A DNA stretch of 64,000 bases from NCBI RefSeq assembly GCF_000003815.2, contig NC_049993.1:18009139-18073138 (forward strand), written 5' to 3'. The stretch comes from Branchiostoma floridae (lineage: Eukaryota; Chordata; Leptocardii; Amphioxiformes; Branchiostomatidae). The notes under the pieces were generated by a model. The model saw only the letters and a list, made by a program, of their open reading frames with translations, searched no databases and was not told the origin of the DNA. Shown piece after piece: positions 4,650-60,900 of this stretch; position 1 is the first letter of the stretch, and each line of letters opens with the position of its first letter. The translations under genes were made by a program, and so were the position numbers.

Positions 4650-7600
4650 CTACTTGAGGTGCAGCAGCATGGCGGCAGGATTTTCTAGGTACGACTTCCA
4701 GAGGTTGGAATAACGCGCCATGGTGGCGCCGTCGATCACGCGGTGGTCAGCTGACCAACTGACCGCCAGGAGGTGCGCAGCGTACACGTCACCGCTGGTG
4801 TCAAATCTGGGCAACACCTAGGGGTCAAAGGGCAACAAAAATAAGTTTTTGCTGTAATTCTTATAACTGAGAGTAATAGTTTTACATTAAGAAGGTTGGT
4901 ATAAAAGGTATACATACTTGTGATGATGATTCGTGATTTTGATATGATACACAATGTGTATGTGAGGTAGGTGCAATTTTGAAGAAAACCATCTTTGATA
5001 AAAGTCAATCACCTAAACACTCCAAATGTTAAGCCATAGTTCCTCCATGCTTGTATGACATTTTGAAGTTCATCTTCAGCTATCACTAAGACACTACACT
5101 ACCACTTAATCTATCCTTTACAAAACAGTTAAGCATATAAATGTTGAGAGTTGTCCCTACCTGTACTTTACCCAGCGCTCCTATAGCAACTTCAGGGGGC
5201 ATGATGACTGGTTTGGCGTAGGTACCTCCGATCTGAAACACACGGTTATGATTGGTTCAGACTCTCATGGTGCTCAGGCTGCAGCCAATCACATGGTATC
5301 TTTCAGTTTGAAATCAAAGGGCATCAGAGGTGAAGAATGAGCCAATTGGATCTTACAACACATTGAGGAATCAGCCAATGACATGACACTGTCAGAAATG
5401 GGTTGGTCTCTCCATATTTAGAATATTTATAATAGCCAAAGATCTGCCATTGATTAAAAACCCTGAAATCCGCTACCATGTCTACCCTTACAGGACAGAA
5501 AAAACAGATTGCAAGTGAGCAAGTGATCATGCTGTCAATACAAAAACTCATCAACTTTCTATCCAGTTTATTGTCTGTTGTTAACTGTCTCAAGAGGGTC
5601 AGATTTGACATGTTATGTCAGACCCCAAAGTTTCTCTGTGATGCGGCTGTATCTATAGGTTGAGGAGGTGGAAGTCACCAATTTAAGTAGTCATCCCCAT
5701 GGATTTTATCCTTCAAAAGTCACTGTGATGATCTTTCTGAGCCACTTCTTTTCAAATATTAGTACGCCAATTTTCCTAACAACCAAAAACAGTAAAACAA
5801 TAGAGAAACCATCCGACTCACCGCTCCTATATTGGAGAGTGTAAAGGTGCCGCCTGTGAGGTCCCCTGTGCCCAGCTTGCCCTGTAGGCCCAGGTTGTGG
5901 AGCCTGTTTAATTCTGCAGCCACCTCCAGTACAGACAGGCCCTGAACATTCTTCACGTTGGGCACCACCAGACCATTGGCTGTGTCCATGGCTAGGCCTA
6001 TGTTATGAGATGCCTGAAAAACATGTGCAAACCTTTTCAGGCACTATTCAAAGACCGGTGCAATGGCCTAGTGGGTAGAGTGTTCGCCTTGCATTCGGTA
6101 GGTCGTGAGTTCGATCCCCGGCCGAGTCATACCAAAGACTCTAAAAATGGTACATGCTGCTTTCTCTGCTTAGCACTCAGCATTAATGAGGAAGAGCATG
6201 GAAGTTAAACACACATCACTACCAGCGGACCAGCCCCCTGCTGTAGTGGCTTGCACATGTGTGGCCCAAGGGCTTTGAAGTGGGGATGGGCGCCACCCTA
6301 CGCGTCTGTAGATGCATGGGCAAACTTTAACTTTATTCAAAGTTGCATGTCTAGATAGATACTGTCGATCAAAGCTAAAAGTTTAAGCAATAAGAGAGAA
6401 CCTGCTGGTTGGTTTTGTATTTCTACCTTTTGAACATTTGTTCGCAATTTTCATCATACTTTGCTTACAGGTGGTTCTTCATCTTCCATTTCATTTTAAA
6501 ACTGTACAAAGCAAAATAGATTAATCAGTGTAACCTAGGCCTTGTGTTATCTAAATAGTGGAGGATATATCTAATTTATTCACTTCCTTGATCATATTTA
6601 CAAAAGGTGTAACAGCTACAGCATGGTGTATACAATAAGAAAGCAAAGTAACTGAAGTATTTGGACTAATGATCACTAATCAACCTCATTACCTTCAATG
6701 TCATGTTTTCACACTTGTCGTCAACAGTAGCATTCAAGACTGGATATTGTAGAAGTGCCATGGAAGCAGCCTGGAGGGAAAAAAACACAGTTATGTAATT
6801 GATCAACCTGAAGCCATATTTGCCGTTGACAAGAAGGCTATGTTTTTGGTTATAACTCAAGAAACTGTGGAAGGAATCTGTGCTTTTTGGTAGATTTGTA
6901 GTGGTTGTGGAAAGGCAGGGTAAGTTCATAAAAACCTAGCATTTTCCTAGGGTACTGCAGCGGGCTTTGTATTTGTGTGCACTTGGTTGTGGACAGTATA
7001 AGCTACTCTTCATGAATCAGACCTAAAGTCTTGAATAAAGGCATGATTATTTTCCGAAGAAATGTGTCCGTGGAACTCTATCATTTTTAATTTTTGAAGA
7101 TTTTGGAAGTCTCACCTTGATGAAGAATGGCATGAAGGATAACCTGACTCCGTACTGTTCCGCCGCCCCCTTTAACTCAGCTCTCAGCTGTACCAACGCT
7201 GTCATTTCTATCTCATCACAGTACCCAAAATGGGGGATGGACTGGGCTAGAGTCATGGACCTCACCATGGCCTTCCTGAAGCCTGTAACCATGGAAACAC
7301 TCTCACTTTCAGTCAAAACACTTTCATTTTCATTAACCAGCGCAGTCATGTCCACCTCGTCACAGTAGCCAAAGTGTGGGATGGACTGGGCTAGTGTCAT
7401 GGACCTCACCATGGCCTTCCTGAAGGCTGTAACCATGGAAACACTCTCACTTTCAGTTACAAACACTTTCATTTTCATTAAACAGTCATTAACTAGTGCA
7501 GTCATGTCCACCTCGTCACAGTAGCCAAAGTGTGGGATGGACTGGGCTAGTGTCATGGACCTCACCATGGCCTTCCTGAAGCCTGTAACCATGGAAACAC

Positions 7601-10600
7601 TCGCACTTTCGTTTCAAAGAATGGGAACACTGTCTTTTACTTTCATTTAGACACAAAGACTTTGAAGGAGTGTGTTAAGAGGGATCTTAATGTGTAGGAT
7701 AGGGCCATTTGGAAGCATGGTGTGAATGAAGACTAGCAGACTGCTACCTACCCCTGTGTCAGTGAACTTAGCAGCAGTACAATCAAACATTGGATACTAC
7801 TACTAATACTTAGAGAGTTAATGTTAGAGTTCATTTAAGTTTTTTGTTACCATTTAAATTGACATAGTTTTATCTTCCATGTATATCCGTACCTTGACCT
7901 ATTCACAAACAAACAAGTAAATAACCAATCACAACCAACACCTTGAACCTTCACTCTTCCCTTCACTTAAACTTAGTATCTACAACTACAACAGTACAAG
8001 TAGGTTTTGTAATAGAAAATACACCCACTGACCCACTAGATGAGTGATCACCCATTGTTTCCAATTTTGCAAAGGTAAGAGAAATAAAGAAATGTGTAAT
8101 CACAGTATTATACACAAAATATCAATCAAAGCGAGAAAAGCTACATATTACTTTGTCATGGGTAAAGTAAAATACAATCGGCTTCATCAACAATAATTTT
8201 ACTGCAAATTCTTGTCCAAGGGCTACTGTAGAATAATATCATAGCATCTGTCTATTCCAGTTTAAAAGCTGATCATTGTAACATTGTTGAAGAGTAAATT
8301 CATAAGTCATGTATGAGCACATTTAATAGCAATTTTTGTTCTAACAGTGACTGATAGCCATAAAAAATTTGGAGGTATGTGTGTTTACCTTTGAAAATAT
8401 GTCACTGTTAGAATAGGTGGGTTCAGTATTTACAATGATTAGTTACTACTAACTAATCATTGTAAAATTACTTATTGAACCCACTCAGTTTTTTTGAGAC
8501 AGTGAATTAATAAAGTAACTTTCCCAACATACCTTTGATTGGTTCGACTCTGTCCTCTCCCACCACGGTTGGCACAGTGGCTACAGGAAGGGGCTTGGTG
8601 GGGGCAGGGGGAGGGGTAGAGGGAGGGGGTGGAACAATTTCGGGGGTGGGGTAGAAGGGGGCCTCTGGGGTGAGGGATGGTTTCACATCTGAAATGCAAT
8701 AAATTTTAAGAAGGTATTTAAAAGGGAATGTTTTTTTTAGAATAGAGCTTACATTCTATAATAAGATATTATGCATGCTTATTTGTGTGTATGTGTGTGT
8801 TTGTGTGCGCATGTGCATGCTTTGGGTTTATGTTCATTTTTTATGTGCTGGTATGAATGTGTATGTGTCCTACATGTGTGTACTAGTAAGAAAGCATGAG
8901 CCTTTGTGTTAGTATATGCATGACTGTGTGTGTACATGTACAGTACATATTCAATTGTAATTGCATTCTCTGCCTATCTAAGAAGAAGTCCTAAAACTCC
9001 ATTCAGTTATTTTTGAGTTATTCAGTTATTCAGTTATTTTAGAATTAAAACAAAGAGATTAAAACACAGAAGCACACCTGGATCAATTTTAGGAGGCTGG
9101 GTTCCTGCTAGGAAGTTAAGAACATCTTCCTTCAGTATTCTCCCATCCTTGCCTGTGCCCATAACCTCCGAAAGGTCAATCTGTAAAAAACCAAACACAA
9201 AAAAACATTATCTCTATGTCTTAACAGCAAGCACAAACATCAAGTGTTTCAACTGCATTTTTTTGGATTCCAGAAAAAAACTTCTCGACCGGACAATCAA
9301 TATGAAAATAAAGTCTGTGAGGGAAGATTGGACCATCAGTAATGGATTCCATTTCTCCTCTCAGCCTTCTGTTTTCATCTTTTCTATTTCCATTTGTTAG
9401 CTATTTCTTTAACACTGTCCCTGCTACCTGCCCTCACCACCAGTACAAGGTTAAAATGTATCTTCTGTACTTGTAACCAAAGACCTTAACTGATAAAAAA
9501 TAAACAAACAAATAAACAAACAAACAGACCTTGTTTTCCATGGCGAGTCTGCGGACTGCGGGCGTGGCCATCACCTTCTGACCTTTGACCTGCTGGTGCA
9601 TGTGTTTCTGTTCCAAGTCCTCGTCTGAGGAGGACGTGTCAGAGGTCACCTCCGCTTGGGAGCTGTCTTCTGTGAAATTAGATATGGATCCCCCTTTAAT
9701 TATTTATTGCTGGTGCAATGACCAAGTGGGTAACGCTAGTTCACCTTTATCCGCTGGATAACCTATGTTTGTTGTTTTTAAAAACGTTGTATTTGGGGAT
9801 TTCAAGTCAACGAACGGTGGTTTCAAACTGATATTTTGAAAATCACGACCACCGACCTTCGACGTCGCCTCGATATCCCTTTAAAAAATGTCATGTTTTT
9901 AAAACAACGGATATGGGTTACCCCACGGATAAAGGTGAACTAGCGTTATAGTGTTTGCCTTGCATTCTGTCTTACATTAATTTTGTTGTACATGTACATC
10001 GTATTTCGTGTTTTAAATTCTGAACCAAGCTGTAGAATTATTCTGTACACCCAAAAAATCTTTCTGTGCACCAAAGTTTTTGGCTTAGGCACACCAGTAA
10101 ACACTTCTTACAAATGAATTTCAAGCCCTGGATATGCTTCGATAGCTAACAAAGTGATGCCAAACACTAATCTATTTCCCCAGCAGTTTTCATCCACAAG
10201 CGGTGTCCCCACAACAGCAATGTCTTCTGCTCTGTAGTACAGTGTGCGGACAATGCTCACACATACTGACAACTAACAGACACAGTAACACCTAACCTCC
10301 TTCCCCAGCAGTCTCTATATCCACCAGTGGCATCCCCACAGCTGCGATGTCCACCTCATAGTGCAGTTTGCGGACAATACTCACACATACTGACAAACAA
10401 ACATACAAACATACAAACAGACACAGTAACAACTTACCTCTTTCCCCTGCAGTTTCTATATCCACCAGTGGCATTCCCACAGATGCAATGTCCTCTATCT
10501 CGTAGTGCAGCTTGCAGACAATGCTCACACATACTGACAAACAAACAAACAAACAAACAAACAAACATACACAGTAACAGCTTACCTCCTTCCCCAGCAG

Positions 10601-13123
10601 TCTCTATATCCACCAGTGGCATCCCCACAGCTGCGATGTCCTCTACCCCATTGTGCAGTTAGCGGACAATACTCACACATACTGACAGACAGACATACAA
10701 ACAGACAAACAGCTTACTTCCATCCCCTGCCGTCTCTATACCCACCAGTGGCATCCCCACAGCTGCAATGTCCTCTACCTTATAATGCAGTTTGCGGACA
10801 ATACTCACACATACTGACAAACAAACAAACAAACAAACAAACAAACATACACAGTAACACCTTACCTCCTTCCCCAGCAGTCTCTATATCCACCAGTGGC
10901 ATCCCCGACAGCTGCAATGTCCTCTACTTTATAGTGCAGTTTGCGGATGATACTCACACTACTGACAGACAAACATACAAACAGACAAAGCATACACCTT
11001 ACCCCTACGGCCGCGTGGCGCGTTGGTACACCCGATCCCTCGATCTCGGAAGTTAAGCAACGCGCGGTCCGGATAGTGCATGGATGGGAGTCCCCCAACC
11101 AAGGATGTCCGGATTGCTGTAGCCTCACAAAGTTTTCCACGAAATCGTCTTCCGGGAGGGACGTAAAACGGGGGTCCCGTGCTCGAGGAGGTGCCTCGAC
11201 CTCGTTAAACAGCCTCATTACCCACACTTTGGGTACCTACTGGCTGCAAAATACACCCGATATTATTATCATTATCATTACCTCCTTCCCCTGCAGTTTC
11301 TATATCCACCAGTGGCATTCCAACAGCAGCGATGTCCTCTACTTCATAGTGCAGTTTGCGGACGATCCCATCATATCTGCTGGTGATGGTGACAGAGGCC
11401 TTGTCACTCTGGACCTCACAGATGGAGTCAAACTGGGCAACTTTGTCTCCTACCTGGACATACCTGAGGCAGAAATGAAATATTTCCTGTCTGTCAGTGA
11501 CTTTGGAATTATATAAATCCTTCAAAATACTGTAAATGCATTTTTAAATTCACTGTAGCGGGAAAATGGGGTGTTGGCGGTGGTCTTAATCTCACAGTAG
11601 CACCATGCACTGCAGTCTCTTACTGCCATGGAAAAACGTTTGCGGTGGTTTTAAGTTTGCGGTAAATTTGCAACGCGAAAACTGTGAACATAAAACCACC
11701 GCAAACATTTCTCCATTTACAGTATTTGCTTAGTTTGAAATTAGTAGATGAAGCTTTTTAAAGACTTGTGCAAGAGTGTAGGAAAAAAATGTCAATTGGA
11801 GAATTGAAGACAGCAATCTTTTCCTGGAGTTGAACTATGATGATGCATTTGAAAGATAATAAAGAAGTATTCAATGCTCACCATTCCTTAACACTGACTT
11901 CAGCAATGCCCTCTCCGATGTCTGACAACTTGAACTGTACAATTTCTCCACAGCAGGCTGAAAATAACACATGAAAGTGCTTCACTACATAATATATAAC
12001 AACATATAATTTTAGAAACATTTCATTTGTATTGATTGTTTTCACTACTAGTACTTAACTTTGGAGTCGTATGACAAAACATGACAAAGTAACTGTCTTA
12101 TAAACTAAAAGGGATTCACTGAGAATGAAATGGGGATACCTGTTCTAAAACTGAATACTGCTAGATATGTTTTACCTGTGGAAGTTTGAAAATGCCTGAA
12201 ATGTGCGTGTCTGTGCAGCAGCTCCCCCTGACAGAGTTTGGTCGTAGCTGCAGGTCTGGCTGAAGCACAGCGGTACAGTCTCGGTACCTACATGGGAAAG
12301 CAGAATGTAGTATCACTATGTATGTTGATGTCAATAAACATTCTGAATGATTTGTTGATAACATCTACCAAATAAGACGTTCTCTGACCTATGTGTCACT
12401 GCATCTCATGTGTACCGGTGTTACACTTGTATAATTACTGCTCTTTGTCTAACCAAGTGCCGGAGTGGTCTAACACACTAGCTTTTATGATCTTTTTATG
12501 ATGCAAAAGTCCTCAAATATGATCATACTTCTTTCTTTGTCTTTGGTCAAGGAGTGCAACTTGTCTTGCATGGTCGCACACACGAAAAAATATAATCTAA
12601 TTTCATTCTAAATCTTGAACAATCATCCTTACAAAAAAAAGAATGAAAACATAGCTGCAGGTCAAAAGTTTACAGCATCATTAGTTTCCCGCGTGACACT
12701 GGACCAACGTTTCTGATTGGTCAATCTGAAGGTGTGTCCCTCTCGTGCCCAGTGTCATGTGCTATACTGCTGTCGGGCGAAATCGGAGGCGTGTCACTCC
12801 GAAACAAACAAACAAACATGGAAACCCAGGTTACATGACCTTAGCACGCTCAGAATACACAAGATCGGGTCATACATTGCTTTTAAATTTGGTAAATTAT
12901 CTCGCCAGCTTTAAATCTACGTGTCGCCTGTCGGCCCAAACATGCACTCAGCTCTATGATTGATCACTTTGTGAGCACATGAAGAAACTACGTCGCGTCT
13001 TTACAGACTGTCTAGTGACAGTCTCTTCTCCTTGTTTACCAAAGCTGTACTTGCCTGTTGACGAAATCTCAAAATTCTCGGACAAATCCGCAAAGACGAC
13101 CTCAAAAACACACGACCCGCCAT
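4650..13123 (-). CDS. DBT: Lipoamide acyltransferase (E2) of branched-chain alpha-keto acid dehydrogenase, mitochondrial
   Basis: Exons from 5' to 3': 13123-13055, 12287-12176, 11957-11882, 11463-11282, 9669-9530, 9180-9078, 8688-8533, 7282-7116, 6770-6693, 6013-5822, 5232-5161, 4817-4650. These give 1515 nt, 504 residues, with codon phases consistent at every junction. The N-terminus ([20 protein letters not shown]) is a typical mitochondrial presequence. A lipoyl domain follows with [10 protein letters not shown] carrying the lipoylated Lys, then a peripheral-subunit-binding domain ([25 protein letters not shown]), a Pro-rich linker (exon 7), and the acyltransferase domain ending in [12 protein letters not shown] with the catalytic His and Asp. 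Human DBT is 482 residues. Intron 1 has a GC donor (CAG|gcaagt). It shares a promoter region with RTCA. Two exons have tandem partial copies (see 7283-7610 and 10170-10965). Confidence 0.96.
6054..6334 (+). mobile_element. tRNA-derived SINE in a DBT intron
   Basis: The head has an A box (TGGCCTAGTGGG) and a B box (GAGTTCGATCCC). The body runs to GCATGGGCAAACTTTAACTT. A near-identical inverted copy is at 29219-29496. Confidence 0.85.
7283..7610 (-). repeat. Two tandem copies of the 5' half of DBT exon 8 with their acceptor sites
   Basis: The real exon begins at 7282. Copies begin at 7426 and 7582, each preceded by GGTTACAG as in the real acceptor. Both encode the same block, (G/A)[13 protein letters not shown] to CDE(V)DMTALV. 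The acceptors are 144 and 300 nt upstream of the real one, both multiples of three, and the frame is open throughout, so use of a distal acceptor would add 48 or 100 residues without a frameshift. Confidence 0.85.
8418..8484. repeat. Near-perfect palindrome in a DBT intron
   Basis: TTACAATGATTAGTTA (8430-8445) and its exact complement (8450-8465) flank a 4-base loop. Outer arms GTGGGTTCA and TGAACCCAC extend the hairpin. It is probably a tiny MITE. Confidence 0.7.
9710..9975 (+). mobile_element. tRNA-SINE head interrupted by a hairpin MITE
   Basis: TGGTGCAATGACCAAGTGGG (9711-9730) matches the head of the 6054 SINE. The SINE resumes after the MITE with GTGTTTGCCTTGCATTC. The remaining tail is not recognisable. 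Confidence 0.65.
9733..9946. mobile_element. 214-bp MITE with 21-bp terminal inverted repeats and TA target duplication
   Basis: The ends begin ACGCTAGTTCACCTTTATCC and are exact inverse complements over 21 bp. TA is at 9731-9732 and 9947-9948, as for Tc1/mariner-type insertions. It splits a SINE, so it is the younger insertion. Confidence 0.8.
10170..10965 (-). repeat. Tandem array of six partial copies of DBT lipoyl exon 4 with splice sites
   Basis: Copies of the 3' half of exon 4 ([20 protein letters not shown], then DIETAGE) have donor junctions at about 10297, 10438, 10586, 10718 and 10866, plus a decayed copy at about 10178-10255. Most keep a donor-like GT (gtaag or gttagg). Upstream of each coding block is a GTTT-rich tract ending in CAG, which resembles a polypyrimidine tract and acceptor. 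Some copies carry indels (copy ending 10866), so not all can be read through. Confidence 0.85.
11001..11281 (+). mobile_element. 5S rRNA-derived SINE at the donor site of DBT exon 4
   Basis: The stretch from ACACCCGATCCC through CTCGGAAGTTAAGCAACG to GCATGGATGGGAG (about 11028-11090) reproduces the internal promoter region of eukaryotic 5S rRNA. It ends in a TTATTATCATTATCATTA tail. On the gene strand the tail starts four bases inside the intron. The likely target duplication is GGTAA. SINE3-type elements of other animals have 5S heads. Confidence 0.8.
11530..11722. mobile_element. MITE of the CTGTAAATGC family, copy 1
   Basis: It starts CTGTAAATGCA, ends with its inverse, and has TA on both sides. 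Internal GCGGTGG and AACCACCGC stretches form a long hairpin. Related copies are at 46182-46389 and 63727-63880. Confidence 0.75.
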
Positions 13124-21875: not shown

Positions 21876-24800
21876 ATGGATCGGCTCCACCGCCAAGCTA
21901 TTCTAGACTGCTATGAAGACATTTCCCGTGACATGGACCCTAAACTGGTCCTGCGATACAGCACTGTTCACTGGCGGGACGAAGACCCGGGCGTCATTCG
22001 GGCCAAGGAGAGAACCGAGGGACGTCACTCCAGTGCTAGGGCGCTCTTGGACAAGCTGTTGGGTGCGCTTCCGAAGTTCTTTCTTAACGTTTGTGTACTT
22101 TTCAAAAACAACATATCAGAAGTCCGAATAATTTCATATAACTATAAGGTTCAACTAAATGAGCGTATACGTACAACTCCCACAGCGTAGACGCAAAATA
22201 CAGGTGACTACGATCCGATACATTCCGATACATTCTACTGTTTTCGAAAATGATAGACAGCAACAGCAAGAGAAATAGATACTACCGGTGTTTTCCTGAA
22301 CGTTGCATTTTACCGGTTTTGCAGTTCAGGTATTAAAGATTGTAACATTTTGTCACTGTGTAATATGTGACATTGGATACTTTGTCGTTGACCCACAGAT
22401 CTACCGTACGATGGATTTGACGACTTTGTTCAGAGCCTTAGCGCAGTCCCGTACGATCACCTTGTGGAGCAGCTACTGGAGGCTCGGACACGACTTCGGA
22501 CAAGAGTGGAAAGGGGAGAAATAAGGATGAGGGATCTTGGAAGACGTCGACAAGGTATATATGTTGGGTTTTCTCTGTCACCTGCAGAACAGGGGGCATG
22601 CAGGGTACCGTACACGAATGTGTTGGGCGTAACAGTCTGTCGTACTATTTAGCCTTTTTACGATGTAAAGTGTTGTATTCTATAAAGGTGTCTTCTACAC
22701 AACACACATTTATAGTTCCGACTCTATATACTTTCTCTGTACGCTAATCATTCGGGGGTGGGGTGGGGGGATAAATCCAACCGTAAATGTTGCAGCAGAG
22801 GTATACGTATGTTCTTCCCCACGTCTGAACCAGGGATATCATGTAGCGCAAATGTATTGTCTACATTCTTAACGCGCGTTGAACAAATGTTTTGAGAGTA
22901 TCAAATGTCTTAAGACCTATTTTACTATTGAACCAGACCATTGAGTCATTTTATGTTGTGACTCTTTTGTGGTTAACTTCGTAGTCGAGAACGTAACTTG
23001 CCTCTCAATGATTTTGTGCAATAGAAGTGTGAACCTATTTTTGAGGTGCATGTGAAGTACACTACTAAAAGTCTCGATATGTTTTTATGAAAAGTCGTTT
23101 TTCTTTAAACTTTTTTAACTGCGTGTTTTACAGATACCACTTTCACAACATGGACACTTAGCATTTTAGTACTATCCGTTGGGATTCTAGTGGCAGGTTT
23201 GACCTGGGCGCTCAGTTTCGGAACAAAAGGTGAGTTTCTTTTCCTTTGTGGAAGACTTTGTTGCATTGCGTCTTACATCTTTATTTTCATCCTTCAGGAA
23301 AGACATTCTATAGTATGAATAAAGAGGATTGAATTACTCCTACGTACGGTATATATCTTATTCTAACGCAGGAAACATATTCATGTTACAGAAACATCTT
23401 TAATGACCGTCTTCCCCCGTCGTCTGAAGACGTTTGTGGGACGAGAGGATGTTTTCGGCAAGATCGACGCCTGTCTTGAACAGAACCAGACCTGCCTCAT
23501 CAAAGGACTGGGCGGTGTCGGTAAAACAACACTGACCATAGAGTACGCACACAGGCGTGCGAATGTGTACGATGGAACAGTGTTCTGGGTCAGGTTAGCA
23601 AGTACTAGAGACCTATGTGCTAGCATCAGTCAGTACATTTTGTACTTTAATGGGAGGGGAGAAGAATATGTGCTCTCTAGCGATGACCTGGGTTGTAAGT
23701 CCGTGAAGATGCACTTTAGAGAGTACTTGACAAACACGAAAATTTGGCTTTTAGTTGTTGATGAGGTATCTCGCGACACCATGAAAGAGCTAGGGTCCCT
23801 TCTCCCACATAGTCCCACACGGACAATGCACATTTTACTAACTTCGCAAGAATATCAAAGACTTGATATGGAGCATATTTCAGTGGTCAGTATTCCTCCG
23901 TTCAGTCACACCGAGGCCTTGGCCATGTTTGACAAAACTGTCAGACCAAGCGATGAAGATGACAGGAGAGAGATCGAAAGCCTCAGTCGGTCCTTGGGAC
24001 ACCATCCCCTAGCCTTGCAGTTCGCGTACTCATATATATCTGCAACTGACTGCTCTATCAAAGACTACCATGCCAAATATATTGAAGGCTACGCTACGCA
24101 AAAGGTAGACTTGCTAGACAAAGCTGACGTAGAACAATCCGCAAACAGGAAGATACGCCAAACATTTCAAATCACGTTCCAATATGTAGCAAACCTTTCT
24201 ACAAACGCGGCCTATCTTTTAAGTATGGCATCGTTTGTGGGTCCCGACTGCATACCCTGCCCAAAAGCGATGAGGAAAAGAATTGCAAGACTTTTTTTTC
24301 CTGCAGGGCAATTGGACAAACTGGATACGATAGAAATGGTGTCTCTTCTAGAGAGATTTTCCTTGGCTTCTCATTGCCATTTTTTTCAACCGTGTGGATT
24401 TAGCGTGAATAGAATAGTACAGGAAGTTATTGTGGCAGAAATGGACGAATTAGAGAGGCTTTTTCGTTTACAAAATGCACTGGAATACTCCGCTTTGCTC
24501 CTAAGGAACACTAAGCACACTTCCAGGGTTCAGGCCGAGTTCTTGATGTCCCACGTGCATTATGTAGCCTTGAATCTTGACAGGTACCAAACGAAAGGCC
24601 CATTCCCTGCTTCTTCTATAAACATTTTCTTTAATAAGTCCGCCGACTTTTTCTGTCGATGGGATGCGTGTGACGAGGCGTACTATTTTTTTACTCTCCA
24701 ATCAGATATTAGGCTCCGGCTGTTTTTTACCTCCATGAAAAATGGAGGACCTGGTATAGTTTTTGGTGTGTCTGTGTGTGTGTCTCTGTGTGTGTGTGTC

Positions 24801-25521
24801 TGCCTGTCTGTTTGTGTTTCCGGATATATGTGGTCAACATAACCCTAGTTGATGTTGTTTTTGTCGTTTTTATCTGTCTTTCATTTTTGTATTGTATCTG
24901 CTATGTTAGATAGTAGTAAGTCCACGGGACCTTTGCCTGTGTCAGTTTGCCATCTCTTTAACAATATCAACTTTCTCAGGAACACACTGCTTCCTTGCCT
25001 GTATAAAGATGCAGTGCATTTTCTATCAAGGACCGTGAAGACAACTCCTGGAAACAGCTGAACAACAAATACGATATTATTAGTAAGTTTCTCGACATCC
25101 TCGACCCACTGTTGAAACGTTGCCATTTTCTTGGAATCGGAGTTGCAAGAAAAAAGAAGCAAAAAATTACGAAGCAAAAGAGCACTAAACTTGCTAACCA
25201 TATTTCATTCGTTCTAAGTTATATGATTAAAAAGCGCAAGACATTGTACATCCCTTTGCCACAGTAAGCTGCACATTTGCATGTCCTGCCTTTCGAGCTG
25301 TGTTTAATTGTGAGAGCTCCTTCCCGTACATTAGGTGGGTCTGGAACACACTTGAGGAAATGTTAAGGTATTTAGACTGTTTACTGGAACATTCTCATTT
25401 TGATCTGAAATGCTGTTCCAGATTCGTTGACATTTTGGGCACCTATCTAAACTCAAACATATTCATTGACCTGACATCAAAACAAAGCAGTTATCATGAG
25501 TTAAGAAATGCTCTTTGGTGA
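21876..25521 (+). CDS. CARD / membrane segment / NB-ARC STAND protein, 3' part disrupted
   Basis: Proposed exons: 21876-22062, 22399-22554, 23134-23229, 23392-24753, 24910-about 25263 and 25335-25521. The start sits in GCCACCATGG; an in-frame ATG at 21834 would add 14 residues. Exons 1-2 (residues 1 to about 100) form a CARD-like death fold (SARALLDKLLDLPYDGFDDF). Residues about 95-114 are very basic. Exon 3 (residues 115-146) encodes a single hydrophobic helix (WTLSILVLSVGILVAGLTW). Exon 4 holds NB-ARC: P-loop GLGGVGKTT (185-193), Walker B LLVVDE (Asp 270), HHPLAL, and an MHD-like SVNRIVQEVI. Such proteins act as nucleotide-switched immune or apoptotic scaffolds. No TPR, WD40 or LRR repeats are evident. 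In exon 5 the frame shifts between about 25020 and 25060, so the copy may be a pseudogene, a sequencing error, or spliced otherwise. Confidence 0.82.
24762..24830 (+). repeat. GT-rich microsatellite in the short NB-ARC intron
   Basis: TGTGTGTGTCTCTGTGTG-type repeat. If intron 24754-24909 is not removed, the repeat is translated as a Val/Cys-rich tail that stops at 24842. Confidence 0.7.
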
Positions 25522-51900: not shown

Positions 51901-54900
51901 AGACCCGGAAGATACGATTGAACCTTGTTCGAGGATTTATTTTCGTCTGTCTGGTCAGTCTGTTCATACCCTGGCGCTGAGAGTGTTTTATTGGGCTGAA
52001 ACTCTGGCAGTTTAAAGTTACTTACAATTTAAATGTTCAAAGTTTATGTCAAACAACAACAGCACTAGGAAATGTGGCCACTATAGACAGGTGGTCACTA
52101 TAGAGAAAATGCTGATCTATTGACTAGGAGCCATACGTTACACATGATTTCAGTACACTGATCATTAATCATATAAACATTGCACAGGTAAGCCAATTGT
52201 TTAGATGTACAATTAAGTTCAAATAATTCTGAAGAGAAATATTGATGAGAAAATAATCATTCTCGCCACTGTCTAACTTATAATTACGTATCAAAACTAA
52301 ACGCAGATTTTCTAACTAACGCACCTTTCGCCGACTTCATCAAAGGACCGCCGGCTATCAATCAAACACGGCTGTTGATTAGACTTAGAGCTTCAAACCG
52401 TCATGTGCTGTGTGCCAGTTGACAGCAAACTTCATGCTACGTGATGTTTTACATTGCTTGGACCTTCTTTCCTACAGCGGTGCTTCTACAAAATATTTAG
52501 ACTGTAACACTGATTCCCACATGTTTTATAGAATAGAATTTGACGCAGAACAGCGTTTTTTGCTGGGTATTTTTCTTGAAACATGTCCGTGGGAATATCA
52601 GCGAGGCGGCGACGTAGGGATATCAGACCATCAACAAAAGTCGCACGGCGGCTAACGGCGCAGCGAAGATACTAGCGCTATAAATAAGCGCTTCAACTAA
52701 GGATGGCAACCCGAACAATATTTTTGTATACTGTTGAGCTAAGTAAAGTTTGTTGTTTTTGAGGTTTTAGTTGTCATTGAAGCTTTGACCCGAAATATTT
52801 TAAAGTCAAACTGCTGAAGAGAAGTGACTGCTACGATTATCGTAGATATGGCCCTAAAAAAACTGATAAAAGAAGCCTTAAGTATAGTCTAAAATGCAAG
52901 AGCTTCCGGGGGGGCTTCACCCACCTGGGTCCCCCCCACAGTGGCCCTGCCCCTGGACCCCGCCTGGGACATTCGGCGGCCCCCGGACCCCTGTCCGACG
53001 CTTTGAAAAAATCCTGGCGAGAAGTCTGTACGGCCTGAGTCTTCAAGTTAACGTATTGTGTGGTCCCGCTTATGAATATTAATTAGCCTTCGCTTTCCTC
53101 TTCGCTGATTGGCTGAACCATTAATTGAATTAACTCTTCCTGCCGGCTAGACAGCACGTCACCGGAACGTACTGCGCCTGCGCGAACCCTGGTGGTTTGG
53201 GGCTTGGTTTGGTCAACGTTGCATTGAAATCCCGCTTGTTGCACAGTATATGTTAGAGACATGGTTTCATGTAAAACGTACACGGGATTTTACCCTTATA
53301 TACGCACGTACTTTCTTAAATGCGGCCCTTTAGTAAACCGGGGGTTTAGCAAGGTTTAGCATGTCTATACTTTTTGCGCATGCGCAGTACGTTCCGGTGA
53401 CGTGCTCGGCTAGACGCAGGTGCAGATGTCGGCTCTGTGGGGTGAACGTCCGAAAGGTCATGGCATGGAGAACGAAAGAAAACCAATTTCCCCTAAAAAA
53501 AGTGCTGTAATTAAGCCTTTTACAGTACTTTATGCCAAAAATTTTACTTGGATCATTTTACCAACTATCTTATGCCTATCTATACCAAATGTTACTCATA
53601 CCAGGGTACAGGGGTGCAAAATATACCGTTATAAGACCGTCAACAACAGTCGCACGGAGCTAACAGCGCAGCGAAAATACCATCGCTAGCGTTTCAACTT
53701 CGGATAACAAGTTATAAGTACTGTTGAACTCAGTAACGTTAAAGTTTGTTTTTAGTTGCCTTTGACGGTTTGACATGAAATAGTGTTACGCTAAACTCCT
53801 GAAGAGAAGTTAAGTGACTGCTGCGATTATCATAGATATGCCCCTAAGAACTGATACAATATAAAGCCTTCTGAATAGTCTAAAATGCGAGAGCCTTAGG
53901 CGGGCTTCGCTCTCCCTGGCGGGAACACTGCTATATACGGGATCATGAGGCCCCGCTTATGAATATTAATTAGCCTTTGGCCTCCTCTTCGCTGATTGGA
54001 TAGGTCTTTGATTCAATTAACTCTCCGGCTGACGCGCACAGGTGTGGCTCTGTGCGGGGTCACGGAAGGTCACGTCAGGAGGCCAAAAGAAAACAAATTT
54101 CCCCTCAGAAAAGTGCCAAAATTAATCATTTTAAAGTTGTTTATGTCAAAAATTTTACTTGAATCTTGTTACCAAGTATCTAATGCCTATCTATACCAAA
54201 TTTCAGGTCATTTAATTGTAATACCAGGGTACAGGAGCCAAAAGTGTCCTTTTTTGGTCAAAAATTGGCCAAAAATCGCAAAAATAAGCATTTTGTTGCA
54301 CTGTACACCAAAAGTGTTATTGAATTTATATGAAGGGATTATCAAGGCACATCTGTGTCAAATTTCAGCTCATTCGGTTGCAATACCAAGGTACAGGAGC
54401 CAAAAGTGTCCTTTTTTGGTCAAAAATTGGTCAAAAAATCGCAAAAATAAGCATTTTGTTGTACTGTACACAAAAAGTGTTATTGAATTTATATGGGGGC
54501 ATTATCAAGGCACATCTCTGTCAAATTTCAGCTCATTTGGTTGTAATACCAGGGTACAGGGGCCAAAAGTGTCCTTTTTTGGTCAAAAATTGGTCAAAAA
54601 ATCGCAAAAATAAGCATTTTGTTGTACTGTACACCAAAAGTGTTATCAAATTTATATGGAGGCATTATCAAGGCACATCTCTGTCAAATTTCAGCTCATT
54701 TGGTTGTAATACCAGGGTACAGGGGCCAAAATATACAGTTTTGGTCTAAAATTGACCAAAAACTCTCAATAAAATCATTTTAGAGGCAGATATGAAAAAA
54801 CTGAGAAAAAAGCATCAAGGTATTGGCCCATTCTACCCCTGTGCCAAATTTCAGGTCATTCGGTCCAGGAACGGCGGAGATGAATCACTTTGAAGATTTG

Positions 54901-57900
54901 ACAGGAGAAAGAAGAAAGAAAGAAAGAAAGAAAGAAGAAACACTAGAAAGGCCGACATTTGCTTGGGTGCAAATACAGCATATTTCAGCCATACCATTCC
55001 CACGCAACATTGGACTGTTCCAAGTCACCCCTGCGCAAAAATGCAATATTTTAACTGTAAGTTATCCCCAAAAGAGAACTAATATTGTGAATTGATTTCA
55101 GGTCAAAACAGAGCTTGCCCAATATGAACCGGGCCCATATGGAAGAATATAATCTTCCACAGGAGCGCCTATGCATAACTGATTGGCTTTTAGAATTGCG
55201 GCAGCTCCTATTTTTCCGAGAGTGAAAAAAACCCGCATCTTCCATTCAGAAGATTTTCATCATGAAATTACATGACGCCATTGAACAATTTCCACTTCGA
55301 TAACTAGGTCTAAGTACCGTCATAATCTCCTTGTGATGTGGGTACATTTATTATTGCATTGCTTTTTTTTAATCAAGTAGGGCATACGTTTTAATAATTG
55401 TCAAGCAGGTGCAGGTGTTGTGTAGTAGGAGTGTGTTGTTGTTGTTTTTTTTTTCAAGCTAAAAACTTCAATCTTCCTCTTGTTTTGTATGAGCCATTAC
55501 ATAAACGGAGACGTCTCGAATTTTTACAAGAATTTTACCACCCTGTCGCTTCATTTCTTTTCTGAAAAATCCCAGGACCAACAAGTTAACTTGATTTGGC
55601 TTTATCTATATATTTCATTTTCCTTCGAATTCTTTGTTAAGTATATGTCCTGTATACCACTGTTAAATTGTTTTATTTTGTATGCAATCAGCCATCGGAC
55701 GTAATCTTGTCTGAGTGTTGTAATTTCCTGCTCGTAGCGTGCGAGACCTGGAGGATAGGAGTTTCTACCTTGTTCAGGGGTTTCTTTTTGGAGGTCAGTG
55801 GTGATACTCTGGTACTAAGAGTGTTTTATTGGGCTCAAACTCTGGCAGTTTAAAGTTACTTACACTTTGAATGTACAAAGTTTACGTCAAAAAAGAACAA
55901 CAACAACACTAACGTTAGAACTACCTACATTTGTTTGGGAAAAAATACATGCATTCTCGCCACTGTCAAACTTACGTATCAAAAGTAAACGCAAACTGTC
56001 CAATTTTCCCGCGTTTTCTGCCAAGTAACATTTTCTCGATTGTCTCAACTAACCCCCAAAGTCAAATCTGCCAAAAATGATTGATAGTGCTATGCGGAAT
56101 GTTGGTAAATTCATCGACACAGACTTGTATTCTAACGTTCAATGCACGCGTACCGTCCACTGCCGCTCAAATGACACTGTCTGAACTCCAAATCCTCGCA
56201 AACTACAATTTCAAACCGGGCACAGAGTAACATATGGCCACTATAAGGCTGTAATATGCATCTGTTTGTGTATATACGGGATTGCAAGGCCCCGCTTATG
56301 AATATTAACTAGCATTCGCCTTTCTCGTCGCTGATTGGCTGGCGTCCATAAAGTAATTAACTCTCGCTCTCCCCAGACCGCTGGCACCTGTGGGCTCTGG
56401 GGTCACGGGAGTTCACGGGAGAAGGCCGAAAGAAAACCAATTTCCCCTCAGAAAAGTGCAGAAATTAATAATTTAAATTGGTTCATGCCAAAAATTTTAC
56501 TTGGATCATTTTACCAACTATCTAATGCCTATCTACACCAAATTTAAGGTCATTCCATTGTAATTCAATGGTACAGGGGGCCAAAATATACCGTTGTGGT
56601 CAAAACGTGACCTTTAAACTTCAATAAAATCATTTTAGAGACAGATATGAAAAAAATGAGAAAAAAGCACCTCGGTATTGACCCACTCTACTCTTGTGCC
56701 AAATTTCAGGTCATTCGGTCCCGGAACGACGGAGATGATTCGATTTGAAGATTTGACAGGAGAAAGAAAGAAAGAAAGAAAGAAACATTACGAATACAAT
56801 ATATTTCACCATACCATATATGGTATGGCTGAAATATAACAATATGTACTAAGACCGGCTATTTGAGCACATGTTCGTTCAAGAGATTGGTTAGATATGG
56901 TATTGGGCTTGTTTTGAAGCGCTTGGTGCGCACTGGCATGTAGTCGAGCTTATTTCCATTTCTTGTCTCCCTACCACTAACATCACCTCTTGACTGTGGT
57001 AGCCAGTCCCTGTAGAGGTCGGAGGTGAGGACATTCCTGGCGAATTTTAAACAAAGCTCGACCCTGCGTTCCTCCAGTGTTTGCAGTTGGAGAACTTCAC
57101 ACGCTAAAGCGTAGGTAGAAAACTTCCTGCCCAGGATTATTCTGGTAGCCCGTCGCTGGATGCGTTCGATCTGATCACGTTGCTTTATTGTCAAGCCCGG
57201 ATGCCAGAGTGGCGCGGCGTACTCCAGCACAGGGCGGACGTAACATGTATATACCGTTACGAGGTCTTCGGTTGGTAAGTCAAATTGACGCAGTCTGCAT
57301 AGGATGTGCAGCCTCTGGTTTCCCTTCTTGGATGTTTCTGTGACGTGAGTGTCCCACCTCAAGTCGTCTTGAAATGTAACTCCAAGACACTTGGCTACCT
57401 TGACAACTGTTAACTGGTGGCCGTTGATGTTGAGAACTGGAGGTGGTGGTGGGATGCGGGAAAAACAGATTACCATGGCTTTGCACTTGCCCGGATTGAG
57501 CTTCATGCTGTTGTCCTCAGTCCAACCTGAAAGATGGTCCAGATCGTCCTGTATGTTGGGTGGTTGGGACAGCAGTCGGGACTCAACAAGGTTGAGATCG
57601 TCTACAAATGCCCAAGACGGAGAAGCTACAATGCTGGGTAGTTCGTTAACATGGGCTATGAAGACAATTGGTCCGAGCTTTGTGCCTTGAGCCAAGCCAC
57701 ACGTAAGACGCTTTGTGTGGGACAACGCCCCCCGGTATCTCGTTCTCTGAGTCCGTCCTTCATGGAAGCTGGCGATCCACGGAATTACTTCTGGCCGAAC
57801 ACCAATCTCAAGTAGATGCTTCATTGCCACTGTGTGGTCAACAAGGTCAAACGCCTTGCTGAAGTCAGTTAAAACCCATGTGCTGCAGGTCCCCTGCTTA

Positions 57901-60900
57901 TCCGCGGTTCTGTACAGTTGATTTGCCAGATTAACTAGGCAATGAGTGGTTGAACGTCCCTTCAAACATCCAAACTGACTAGTTGATATAGATCTGTTTA
58001 TGTCCTGTAGAACCCAGGAAACGATGAAGTCCTCACAAACCTTCGCGAGGAGTGAGGTCAGGGAAACGGGTCGGAGTTGATCTATACTGGGTGGGCGGGT
58101 CTTGGGCAGAGGTACTACGACCGCTTCTTTCCACTGTTGTGGTACTACTCCCTCACGCAGCGAAGTGTTGAAGATGTCAGTAAGGGGTGTAGATATTTCG
58201 TAGGCAAACTCTCGTATCAACTTGCCCGTTATTCCATCTGGGCCCGGCGATTTTGTCGTCTTAACTCTCAGCAGTTTGTGGTACACTTCCCACGGTTGTA
58301 CGGTGGGAGGAGGGCGGGAAGGGAGGAATGCCGGGAGTTTGGACAGGTCCAGAGGGGGGAGCGACGTTGTGATGTCTGAAAACCTCGTGTTGATGATGTT
58401 TGCGATGTCGACGTCGTTTTCTGGGTCAACACCATCGACTGGTACCATCATGTCCTTTCTTTGGGTGCCTGTCAGAACTTTCAGTTCTTTGAACCAAGCG
58501 CGTGGGTTTTCTCTTTTCAACTTCTGAATTCTAGTACTGTAGAACAGTTTTCTTGCTCTCTTAATCGCTGTCTGGATCTTGTTACGGAGTGCTCACCATA
58601 CCACCCAGTTCTGTGCCTGAAACGCACGCTGTCGGGACTTGATCGCAGACTTGATCTTCGGGGACATCCACGGCTTGTCTTGTACGTGGGTTCTAATGGT
58701 CTTGTACGGAAAGTAGGTTTCTATTGCCTGATTTAAAGCTACATAGAGAGCGGAGGTTTTGCTTTGTGTTCCCTGTGCGCTCAACACCTCTTCCCAATGG
58801 TGTGTCGTAATCCACTGGCCGAAGGATCGGATGTTAGAGTCCTTCATTGGTCGTATCCTTCTCTTTGTGGTCTTGTTCACGACAGCCTGGTGTTTAGGAT
58901 GGAGTAAAACAATGCTGTGATCGCTGCGCCCCAAGGGCGAGGTTACAGTGGGCGGGTGATAGAAAACATTCAAGTTTGTGATAATGAGGTCAAGAATAGC
59001 CTCGGATCGGGTTGGAACATTAACAATCTGTTGTAGACCATTGCCAGAGCACACCCCTCTCACATCAACATGGTTAAAATCACCCATTATCAAATAACCT
59101 GCATTATCATATCTGGTTCTTAGATCATCTACCGTATCTAACAGGTGTTGCCTTAAAGCGTCTTCACAAGAAGATTGTGGCGGTGAACTAAACATTACAC
59201 TAAAATAACATCCTGGCTAGAACCCTACACTTCATTATGAAACATGTACATGTTCAGCAGATCGTCCAGGCTCCTTTCCTGCCACGTACAATCCAAAAGC
59301 AACTGTGGCCACCACCATTGACACCTTTGTGTCAAGGCCTCCAAATTGTACTGACACTAAGGCATATTGCGTTGGTGGTCTCCCTTATTCAAGAAACAGA
59401 ATGATTGACACGATGATATACTTTTGCACAATGACATACTTTTTCATATTCTTGTACGATGATATACTTCTTGTGCGATGATATACTGTCTTCTTGTACA
59501 ATGATATATAGCGGTTGCTTCAACAGAAAGAGGATGCTTAACACCATGTTAGCCCACCTTTGTCTGTTTGATAAGGATCTGCAGATAGGCGTCTGCCTCC
59601 ATCAGTTTGGTGTCAAAGTCAGCTGTTGTGGTGATGGGGTGAGAGGTCACACTAGTCGGGAACTGGGGGGGGGGGCATAAACATCTTAGTCAAACAGTCT
59701 TTTACTGGTAAAATGTATATGAATTAATGAATGAAATTACATGTATATTAAAGTGTCTTGCGTTTAGCTAACGCCAGGCCCGCGTAATTATAAGACGCGT
59801 ACCAACACAAAGCTTTATCTTTAATTAGTGCATTTTTTCTGTATCTAGTGTATCATGCAGTAAGTGTAACATACATCATAACCTACACTAGGTGACTGGG
59901 AGTGGCGAGTGATGGTGTCCTCCAGTGCTGAGATCCAACGTTCTCTCTCATCCGCATCACGGGCTGCAGAATAGTTATAGAAACATCCGTAAGCTTGTGT
60001 ACAAGTAGCACTCAGTACAGTCTACTAGACAGATGAGGTCCACCTGGCCATTTTGTGACCACATTGATGATTCCTTTAAGTTATGATCATAAAACATATC
60101 ATATTCTGTTCTTTTATCACCACCATAACTGAAAAGCAAAAAGATGAATTCATCTTACATAAATTTTATCTTGTATTTAAATGAATGTGAACTGAACTTT
60201 CTCTCTGCCAAGAGACACAACATTATTTTAATGGTTGTATCAACTCAAAAGCACTTAATATGTTTTTCTAAATCTAATACCACTTACCCTGAAAGTGAAA
60301 GGTCTTGCCGTCACAGTTGATAGTGAAAGTGCTGTCATCTTCATCATCAATTCCAATCACTGCTCCCTGCACAGGGCACAAGGTATATGTTACATCAATG
60401 AACCTTACAGAACGTACAACTTACTACAAGCAGCATTTAACTACTAGTAAGGCCACAGTATTGTTTCTTGGCAAGTCTACAAGAAGAAAGAGGCTCAGAG
60501 GGAAAGTATTATCTTAAGTTGGTCCATACAGTTTAAGGGATTAGAATGATATACTATCATATAGTAAAGTCACGTCATGTCACCACCTTGCACTATGTAA
60601 AGTACAGCATGTTCTCATACCTAAAAGCTCTATGAAGCAAGATGCTATTAAATCAAAGAGACCTTATTCATCCACCAAGTCAAGATTGTGACTTATCAAA
60701 ACTTATATATGAAATGAAATTTCAAAAACATTCAAGTTTTTAATTTGACTTTAGTAATTCTTTAAAGAAGCAGCAGATCTATTCTAAGAAACCCGCCACC
60801 ACTGAAGATTCTATTCTAGTTTGTCGTACCGCGAACATGTGGCCGGGATCATGTGGGTTGTTTTTGTCCTCAGTACCAATCCTGGCCCCCTGATAAGGAA

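Follow-up and report, generated by a model that had tools for sequence, protein, structure and literature searches.

The stretch of DNA analysed here, referred to as the window, comprises 64 kb of the Branchiostoma floridae assembly (C15:18009139-18073138), and both of its strands were scanned. It harbors a four-exon gene on the forward strand whose predicted product combines a CARD, one hydrophobic helix and an NB-ARC ATPase, and the topology that such a protein would adopt is our subject. We rebuilt the exons from the sequence and predicted their splicing. The exon limits and phases given in an earlier annotation of the same DNA, the original prediction, were reproduced, and the order of CARD_2, helix and NB-ARC across phase-1 joins was confirmed for the gene model (Table 1). 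All three introns between exons 1 and 4 are of phase 1, exon 1 begins with a start codon in the context GCCACCATG, and exon 3 is framed by the acceptor TTTTACAG and the donor AAG/GTGAGT. The helix encoded by exon 3 averages 2.32 on the Kyte-Doolittle scale, and its sum on the biological scale is -1.2 kcal. As originally proposed, it is the single helix predicted between the CARD (residues 1-88) and the NB-ARC domain (residues 177-348), and the stretch preceding it is basic. Judged by eye from MDRLHRQAILDC, a signal peptide is absent.

Table 1. Features of the CARD-helix-NB-ARC gene, in positions of the window
Feature	Position	Strand	Remarks
Exon 1	21876-22062	+	187 nt, phase 0 to 1; first half of CARD_2, residues 1-62
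Exon 2	22399-22554	+	156 nt, phase 1-1; second half of CARD and basic stretch, residues 63-114
Exon 3	23134-23229	+	96 nt, phase 1-1; one predicted membrane helix; counterparts in 11/11 other family genes
Predicted membrane-spanning segment LSILVLSVGILVAGLTWAL, residues 123-141	23157-23213	+	By hydrophobicity
Exon 4, part aligning to paralogs	23392-24728	+	NB-ARC, weak DUF7779, start of C-terminal region; by alignment and Pfam
N-Q-T sequon immediately 5' of P-loop	23484-23492	+	N-x-T at this site in 12/12 family genes
Walker A GLGGVGKT	23505-23528	+	12/12 family genes
(TG)n stretch where the exon-4 frame ends	24729-24944	+	Unmatched by six paralog proteins
Remnant of C-terminal region (HLFNNINFLRNTLLPCLYKDAV)	24945-25016	+	Exon-4 frame; weak alone, E 0.002-0.54 against six paralogs
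Remnant of last part of C-terminal region (HPFATVSCTF...)	25237-25488	+	Other frame; E 8e-8 to 2e-12 against six paralogs

Pfam assigned residues 1-88 to CARD_2 (PF16739; E 8.8e-7, 29.3 bits against a gathering score of 28.2), a family that includes the RIG-I/MAVS-type CARDs, and RIG-I was the best relative of the window CARD among solved structures in the PDB (E 3e-4). Residues 177-348 matched NB-ARC (PF00931; E 1.7e-6, 27.9 bits against a gathering score of 23.5); in two of the paralogs described below, L038 and L034, exon 4 scored under this cut-off (22.5 and 17.1). DUF7779, which occupies the winged-helix position (residues 413-500), was under its cut-off in the window protein and slightly above it in L038. 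Against profiles of solved structures, AfsR was the sole match of exon 4 (E 0.001 and 0.008). When the window protein and two paralogs were scanned with Pfam, neither WD40 nor any LRR family was returned; for NACHT, the window protein gave a sub-cut-off match at E 0.027. Membership in the NLR (NACHT-LRR) class was rejected on account of the sub-cut-off NACHT and the lack of an LRR family, and membership in the Apaf-1/CED-4 apoptosome class on account of the predicted membrane-helix exon between CARD and NB-ARC and the lack of WD40.

Searches of the same assembly, using the CARD-helix part and then exon 4 as queries, revealed a family of at least 12 genes, namely the window gene and the paralogs L030-L039 and L052, the paralogs occupying seven other contigs besides that of the window. 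Compared with the window copy, exon 4 of the paralogs shows about 54-70% identity along most of its length, and the next-best matches beyond the family show 23-28% identity, with one short match at 37%. The CARD-encoding exon 1 is present in nine of the twelve genes, the eight counterparts of the window exon being 69-81% identical, and was not found in the stretches taken for L037, L039 and L052; exon 2 is present in eleven, with a degraded copy in L039. The helix exon precedes exon 4 in every one of the twelve genes. It measures 96, 102, 108, 114 or 120 nt, is always divisible by 3 and of phase 1-1, carries a GTGAGT donor in ten cases, and looks constitutive. For the twelfth gene, L052, no CARD match was obtained. 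Its exon 1 encodes HEPN_DZIP3 (E 7.6e-31) and ends in phase 1; behind it lie a helix exon (102 nt, phase 1-1) and exon 4, which is intact, for a total of 1443 aa. Because L052 swaps the N-terminal domain but keeps helix and exon 4, it is the NB-ARC part, rather than the CARD, that the helix travels with. Outside the family, the distant NB-ARC genes L053 (C13) and L054 (C223), 24-28% identical to it, display by eye a coiled-coil-like sequence ahead of the NB-ARC and TPR-like repeats behind, and a frame upstream of L053 gave HEPN-type matches, all of them sub-cut-off.

To estimate the role of chance, we applied a strict filter that required a phase 1-1 exon of 90-120 nt, well-scoring splice sites and a hydrophobic helix, the helix threshold being set post hoc from the values seen in the family. 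In the entire window, on either strand, exon 3 was the sole match. The filter also passed 8 of the 11 intervals between exon 2 and exon 4 (the window's counted); L031 and L035 failed owing to slightly weaker splice scores, and L032 owing to stops. With a single match in the window and counterparts in 11/11 other family genes, chance was rejected as the origin of the hydrophobic exon. When neutral drift was simulated for four copies at d = 0.25 substitutions/site, just 10-17% of helix exons stayed open and equally hydrophobic. The ratio pN/pS amounted to 0.29 for CARD exon 1 (9 genes), 0.30 for exon 2 (10 genes), 0.31 for the NB-ARC (7 genes) and 0.59 for the C-terminal region (6 genes). By this measure, the NB-ARC exon is under purifying selection.

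The window copy itself is disrupted in its 3' half. Its exon 4 can be aligned to the paralogs until about position 24728, after which the frame passes through a (TG)n tract and ends at a stop at 24840-24842. The 3' limit of 25521 is thus no clean end of the gene, only C-terminal remnants lying beyond the stop, and about 500 paralog residues have no counterpart in the window copy. Because of this disruption the copy may be either a shortened form of the gene or in the process of decay, although CARD, helix and NB-ARC are kept. The argument on the predicted architecture is based on the paralogs that are intact, L034, L035, L038 and L052, and on L036 as far as it was fetched.

In all twelve family genes, the helix has a negative sum, ranging from -0.3 to -2.4 kcal (L032 with its stop masked). 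By the same measure, the three most hydrophobic stretches of exon 4 listed per protein summed to +6.3 to +12.4 in seven proteins, and the next-best stretch of L052 after the helix to +4.5. None of these came close to the insertion threshold. Because the exon-4 stretches sum to +4.5 or higher, as opposed to the negative helix sums, no second span is predicted, and a second membrane segment in exon 4 was discarded as unsupported. On sequence alone, the proteins thus have one candidate segment and no second. We then compared the 20 residues flanking the helix on each side in the 11 genes with a readable N-flank (that of L039 is broken). Lysine and arginine were more numerous in the N-flank than in the C-flank in 11/11 genes, the window copy having 5 vs 4.

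Most of the weight for the predicted topology is borne by the N-x-S/T sequons and cysteines of exon 4. Sequons were counted in six full-length exon-4 proteins (L032, L034, L035, L036, L038 and L039, with L036 taken to its fetched end). L030, L031, L033 and L037, in which exon 4 is broken or gapped, were left out; L052 was scored singly, as was the window copy because of its truncation. The six proteins together contain 82 sequons, a number reached by 0 of 2000 shuffles, compared to 47.6 +/- 6.3 in shuffled sequences, and reversed motifs number 43. As controls, we took eight other PF00931 matches (L001-L008) and, around each, the longest frame; these frames hold 25 sequons vs 28.4 shuffled and 32 reversed. 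Because these controls are distant, the nearest outgroup relatives L053 and L054 were added, and with 6 and 7 sequons vs 4.3 and 4.6 they are not significantly enriched. L052 has 21 vs 9.8 expected, and L034, L035 and L036 show a significant excess singly (p <= 0.004). Eight sequon columns are common to at least four of the six proteins, and where the Asn is kept, S/T at +2 is kept in 202/249 comparisons vs 1714/2606 for other residues. The cysteines present a related picture, with 23 columns kept in at least five of the six proteins. Cys has the top pairwise retention in both halves of exon 4 (0.93, 0.69), followed by Trp (0.92, 0.62), and the values for Cys in three control pairs are 0.32-0.57. 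The window copy retains 11/11 conserved cysteines in its remaining part; its sequons, 3 in all vs 1.9 expected, are not in significant excess (p 0.29).

With moderate confidence, we favour the reading that the family consists of single-pass type II proteins having a cytosolic CARD or HEPN domain and an external NB-ARC and C-terminal region. What was computed is the order, phases and conservation of the exons, together with hydrophobicity, numbers of charges and the statistics on sequons and cysteines; from these we infer that the exons are spliced together, how the protein is inserted and oriented in the membrane, and that it has a ligand, oligomerises and signals. The CARD, or HEPN_DZIP3 in one gene, would remain in the cytosol. 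The phase 1-1 exon, probably always included, would provide a signal-anchor helix, and the NB-ARC, the winged helix and a Cys- and sequon-rich C-terminal region of about 700 aa would be translocated to the lumenal or extracellular side, where they might act as sensor and oligomerisation switch. Clustering of the ectodomains could then gather CARDs under the membrane and lead to CARD filaments or to the recruitment of caspase or adaptor CARDs, a receptor logic akin to that of Toll-like receptors, assembled from STAND parts. It had been argued that placing CARD and ATPase on opposite membrane sides would make no sense, and that the helix must be re-entrant or part of a splice toggle. Neither view is supported by our data: the sequon enrichment and Cys retention of exon 4 across the paralogs fit an external NB-ARC, and the helix exon is found in 12/12 genes.

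As to the ATPase, the Walker B Asp is present in 7/7 aligned exon-4 rows, and at the place of sensor 1, where NB-ARC proteins usually carry an Arg, 12/12 family genes have LLTS[Q/N]E. Considering the Walker A motif, LLTS[Q/N]E and pN/pS, nucleotide binding is probably kept, whereas the third phosphate may be sensed in an unusual manner. One could go further and envisage that the external NB-ARC is loaded with ATP of the extracellular space or the lumen, such as that set free by damaged cells, and oligomerises there, yielding an ATP-gated receptor that clusters RIG-I/MAVS-type CARDs or HEPN domains, the N-terminal domain being exchangeable via phase-1 exon shuffling. This extension we consider unlikely. 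NB-ARC and NACHT switches are currently viewed as intracellular nucleotide sensors, and the family raises the question whether a STAND ATPase can function outside the cytosol. If the type II topology is correct, a membrane receptor would feed straight into CARD signalling.

Several observations weigh against an external NB-ARC. The control NB-ARC genes are cytosolic by assumption. Singly, the sequon excess is not significant in L032 (p 0.10), L038 (0.13) and L039 (0.31), and when counted by distinct alignment columns, sequons number 40 vs 29 reversed. The CARD side is free of sequons in 9 x 114 aa (1026 aa), which says little because the nine CARDs hold just 11 Asn. The window copy keeps 2 of the 7 conserved sequons in its retained stretch and has a broken C-terminal region, and in the assembly, L030, L031, L033, L037 and L039 contain damage or gaps. 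The helix exon evolves faster than the domains, with a pN/pS of 0.69 (10 genes). Moreover, net charge (K+R minus D+E) is higher in the N-flank in only 9/11 genes, being tied in L034 (+3, +3) and reversed in the window copy (+2 vs +3); flank charge fits an external NB-ARC in most of the genes. BbeApaf-J, a lancelet CARD-CARD-NB-ARC protein, was captured as a dsDNA binder from cytosolic extract (PMC11747288). Finally, a strictly conserved Walker A motif (12/12) is easier to understand in the cytosol.

An alternative is a protein that is cytosolic throughout, with a re-entrant, peripheral or hydrophobic-core helix tethering an ordinary CARD-NB-ARC protein to a membrane face. Known CARD-NB-ARC proteins act in the cytosol, and the P-loop GLGGVGKT in 12/12 genes, the purifying selection on the NB-ARC exon and a window copy that is sequon-poor and devoid of a net-charge bias to the N-flank are what such a protein might display. 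We nevertheless regard this arrangement as doubtful, given a helix sum that is negative in 12/12 genes, paralog sequon and Cys patterns unlike those of other NB-ARC-type genes, and the lack of a second hydrophobic stretch able to pair with the helix. Even less credit is due to two rival accounts that concern the transcripts. Should the CARD and helix exons belong to a MAVS-like protein, composed of CARD and transmembrane helix and encoded beside a separate NB-ARC gene, one could point to CARD_2 covering RIG-I/MAVS-type CARDs and to MAVS being a CARD with a membrane anchor. However, order, strand, few-kb spacing and phase-1 joins are alike in paralogs on seven other contigs, and a similar helix exon beside the NB-ARC follows the HEPN exon of L052 as well, leaving separate transcripts scarcely credible.

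The other account treats the helix exon as a cassette, whose inclusion would give a membrane form and whose skipping a soluble, cytosolic CARD-NB-ARC sensor. Skipping would preserve the frame because the exon has phase 1-1 and a length divisible by 3 in 12/12 genes, but this symmetry is uninformative by itself, since all three introns are of phase 1. Of the phase-symmetric cassette initially proposed, phase 1-1 and 96 nt stand, whereas the symmetry is automatic and an exon present in 12/12 genes looks constitutive. A GTGAGT donor, a strong site, in 10/12 genes and exon-4 sequon and Cys signals that imply normal translocation further argue against a toggle. A natural test of skipping, and the sole hint at it, is offered by L032 (C11:13590400-13599000, reverse strand). 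Here, the helix exon contains two in-frame stops, and exons 1 and 2 and the 1121-aa exon 4 are open; because of the two stops, a full protein could be obtained only by skipping. L032 may, however, just be a decaying gene, and so, it seems, are L030, L031 and L033 next to it on C11. All in all, we judge a splicing toggle to be quite improbable and retain the type II receptor with an external NB-ARC as our working model.

Apart from this gene, the window contains several repeats and repeat-like frames. On the minus strand at 10271-11321, there are five copies of the second half of a lipoyl-like domain, four of them in tandem with a period of about 148 or 280 bp. An upstream half is attached to the copy at 11289-11321, and stops occur in some of the others. 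The arrangement looks like the repeated duplication of one exon of an E2-like gene, which we take to be related to the branched-chain E2 (DBT). Three tandem exon-like copies at 7192-7613 (minus strand, period about 156 bp, one open frame) presumably derive from the same E2-type gene. By eye, long frames at 56859-59216 (minus strand) resemble the endonuclease/reverse transcriptase of a non-LTR (long terminal repeat) retrotransposon, and a diverged tandem repeat at 53996-54749 (plus strand) is open in two overlapping frames.

How does the proposed receptor family relate to known systems? Apaf-1 and CED-4 carry an N-terminal CARD followed by an NB-ARC with P-loop and winged helix, and have a TTR-type motif at sensor 1. 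The family shares the order of CARD and NB-ARC with them, but adds a membrane helix, has LLTS[Q/N]E at sensor 1 and gave no WD40 match in the proteins scanned. With RIG-I and MAVS, the window gene has CARD_2 in common, without a helicase match. The CARD of MAVS is membrane-anchored, too, but the anchor of the family lies between the CARD and a large C-terminal part and not at the C-terminus as in MAVS. Within the lancelets, NB-ARC proteins with odd domain combinations are known (PMC2246300, PMC2575513); the words transmembrane and membrane are absent from the accessible text of PMC2246300 (2007). BbeApaf-J and the lancelet Apaf-1-like expansion resemble the family in having CARD, NB-ARC and a C-terminal region without known domains (PMC11747288, PMC2246300). 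BbeApaf-J, likened to the family by domain make-up alone, differs in possessing two CARDs, and no helix is mentioned in the accessible part of its report. Oyster proteins with a Cys-rich ectodomain, a membrane helix and an intracellular DED-TRADD-N (PMC8195603) share the death-fold under the membrane, the single helix, the Cys-rich ectodomain and the lineage-specific expansion. They differ by an N-terminal ectodomain and by DED and TRADD-N in place of the CARD, and no external STAND domain is described in the portion available.

A protein composed of CARD, membrane helix and NB-ARC was not found in the literature surveyed, as far as the sources were accessible and with the 2008 Genome Research survey of lancelet immunity outside its coverage. 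To this extent, the original statement that no animal STAND protein of such arrangement has been described still holds, but membrane NACHT proteins have been published. Anthozoan NLRs contain 3-5 N-terminal membrane helices (PMC5094078), as opposed to one helix in the family, and sponge NLRs with membrane domains are likewise reported (PMC12909245). Both are membrane-bound by prediction, like the family, but have NACHT, and an external ATPase is not claimed in the accessible parts of these papers. In the sea cucumber, AjNLRC4 is a STAND protein of the plasma membrane with two helices, its Ig outside and its NACHT inside (PMC8699970); compared by description, it shares the membrane location with the family and differs in its two helices and internal NACHT. 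A likeness in topology is offered by AjNLR-new from the same animal group, for which an intracellular Ig and an extracellular NACHT were described as 'the first report' (PMC13133943, J Biol Chem 2026). As in the proposed type II receptors, the N-terminal domain resides inside and the STAND domain outside the cell, although, again compared by description, AjNLR-new has Ig instead of CARD, NACHT instead of NB-ARC, and belongs to another phylum. If our reading is correct, the lancelet family would extend this 2026 claim to another lineage and another class of STAND proteins.

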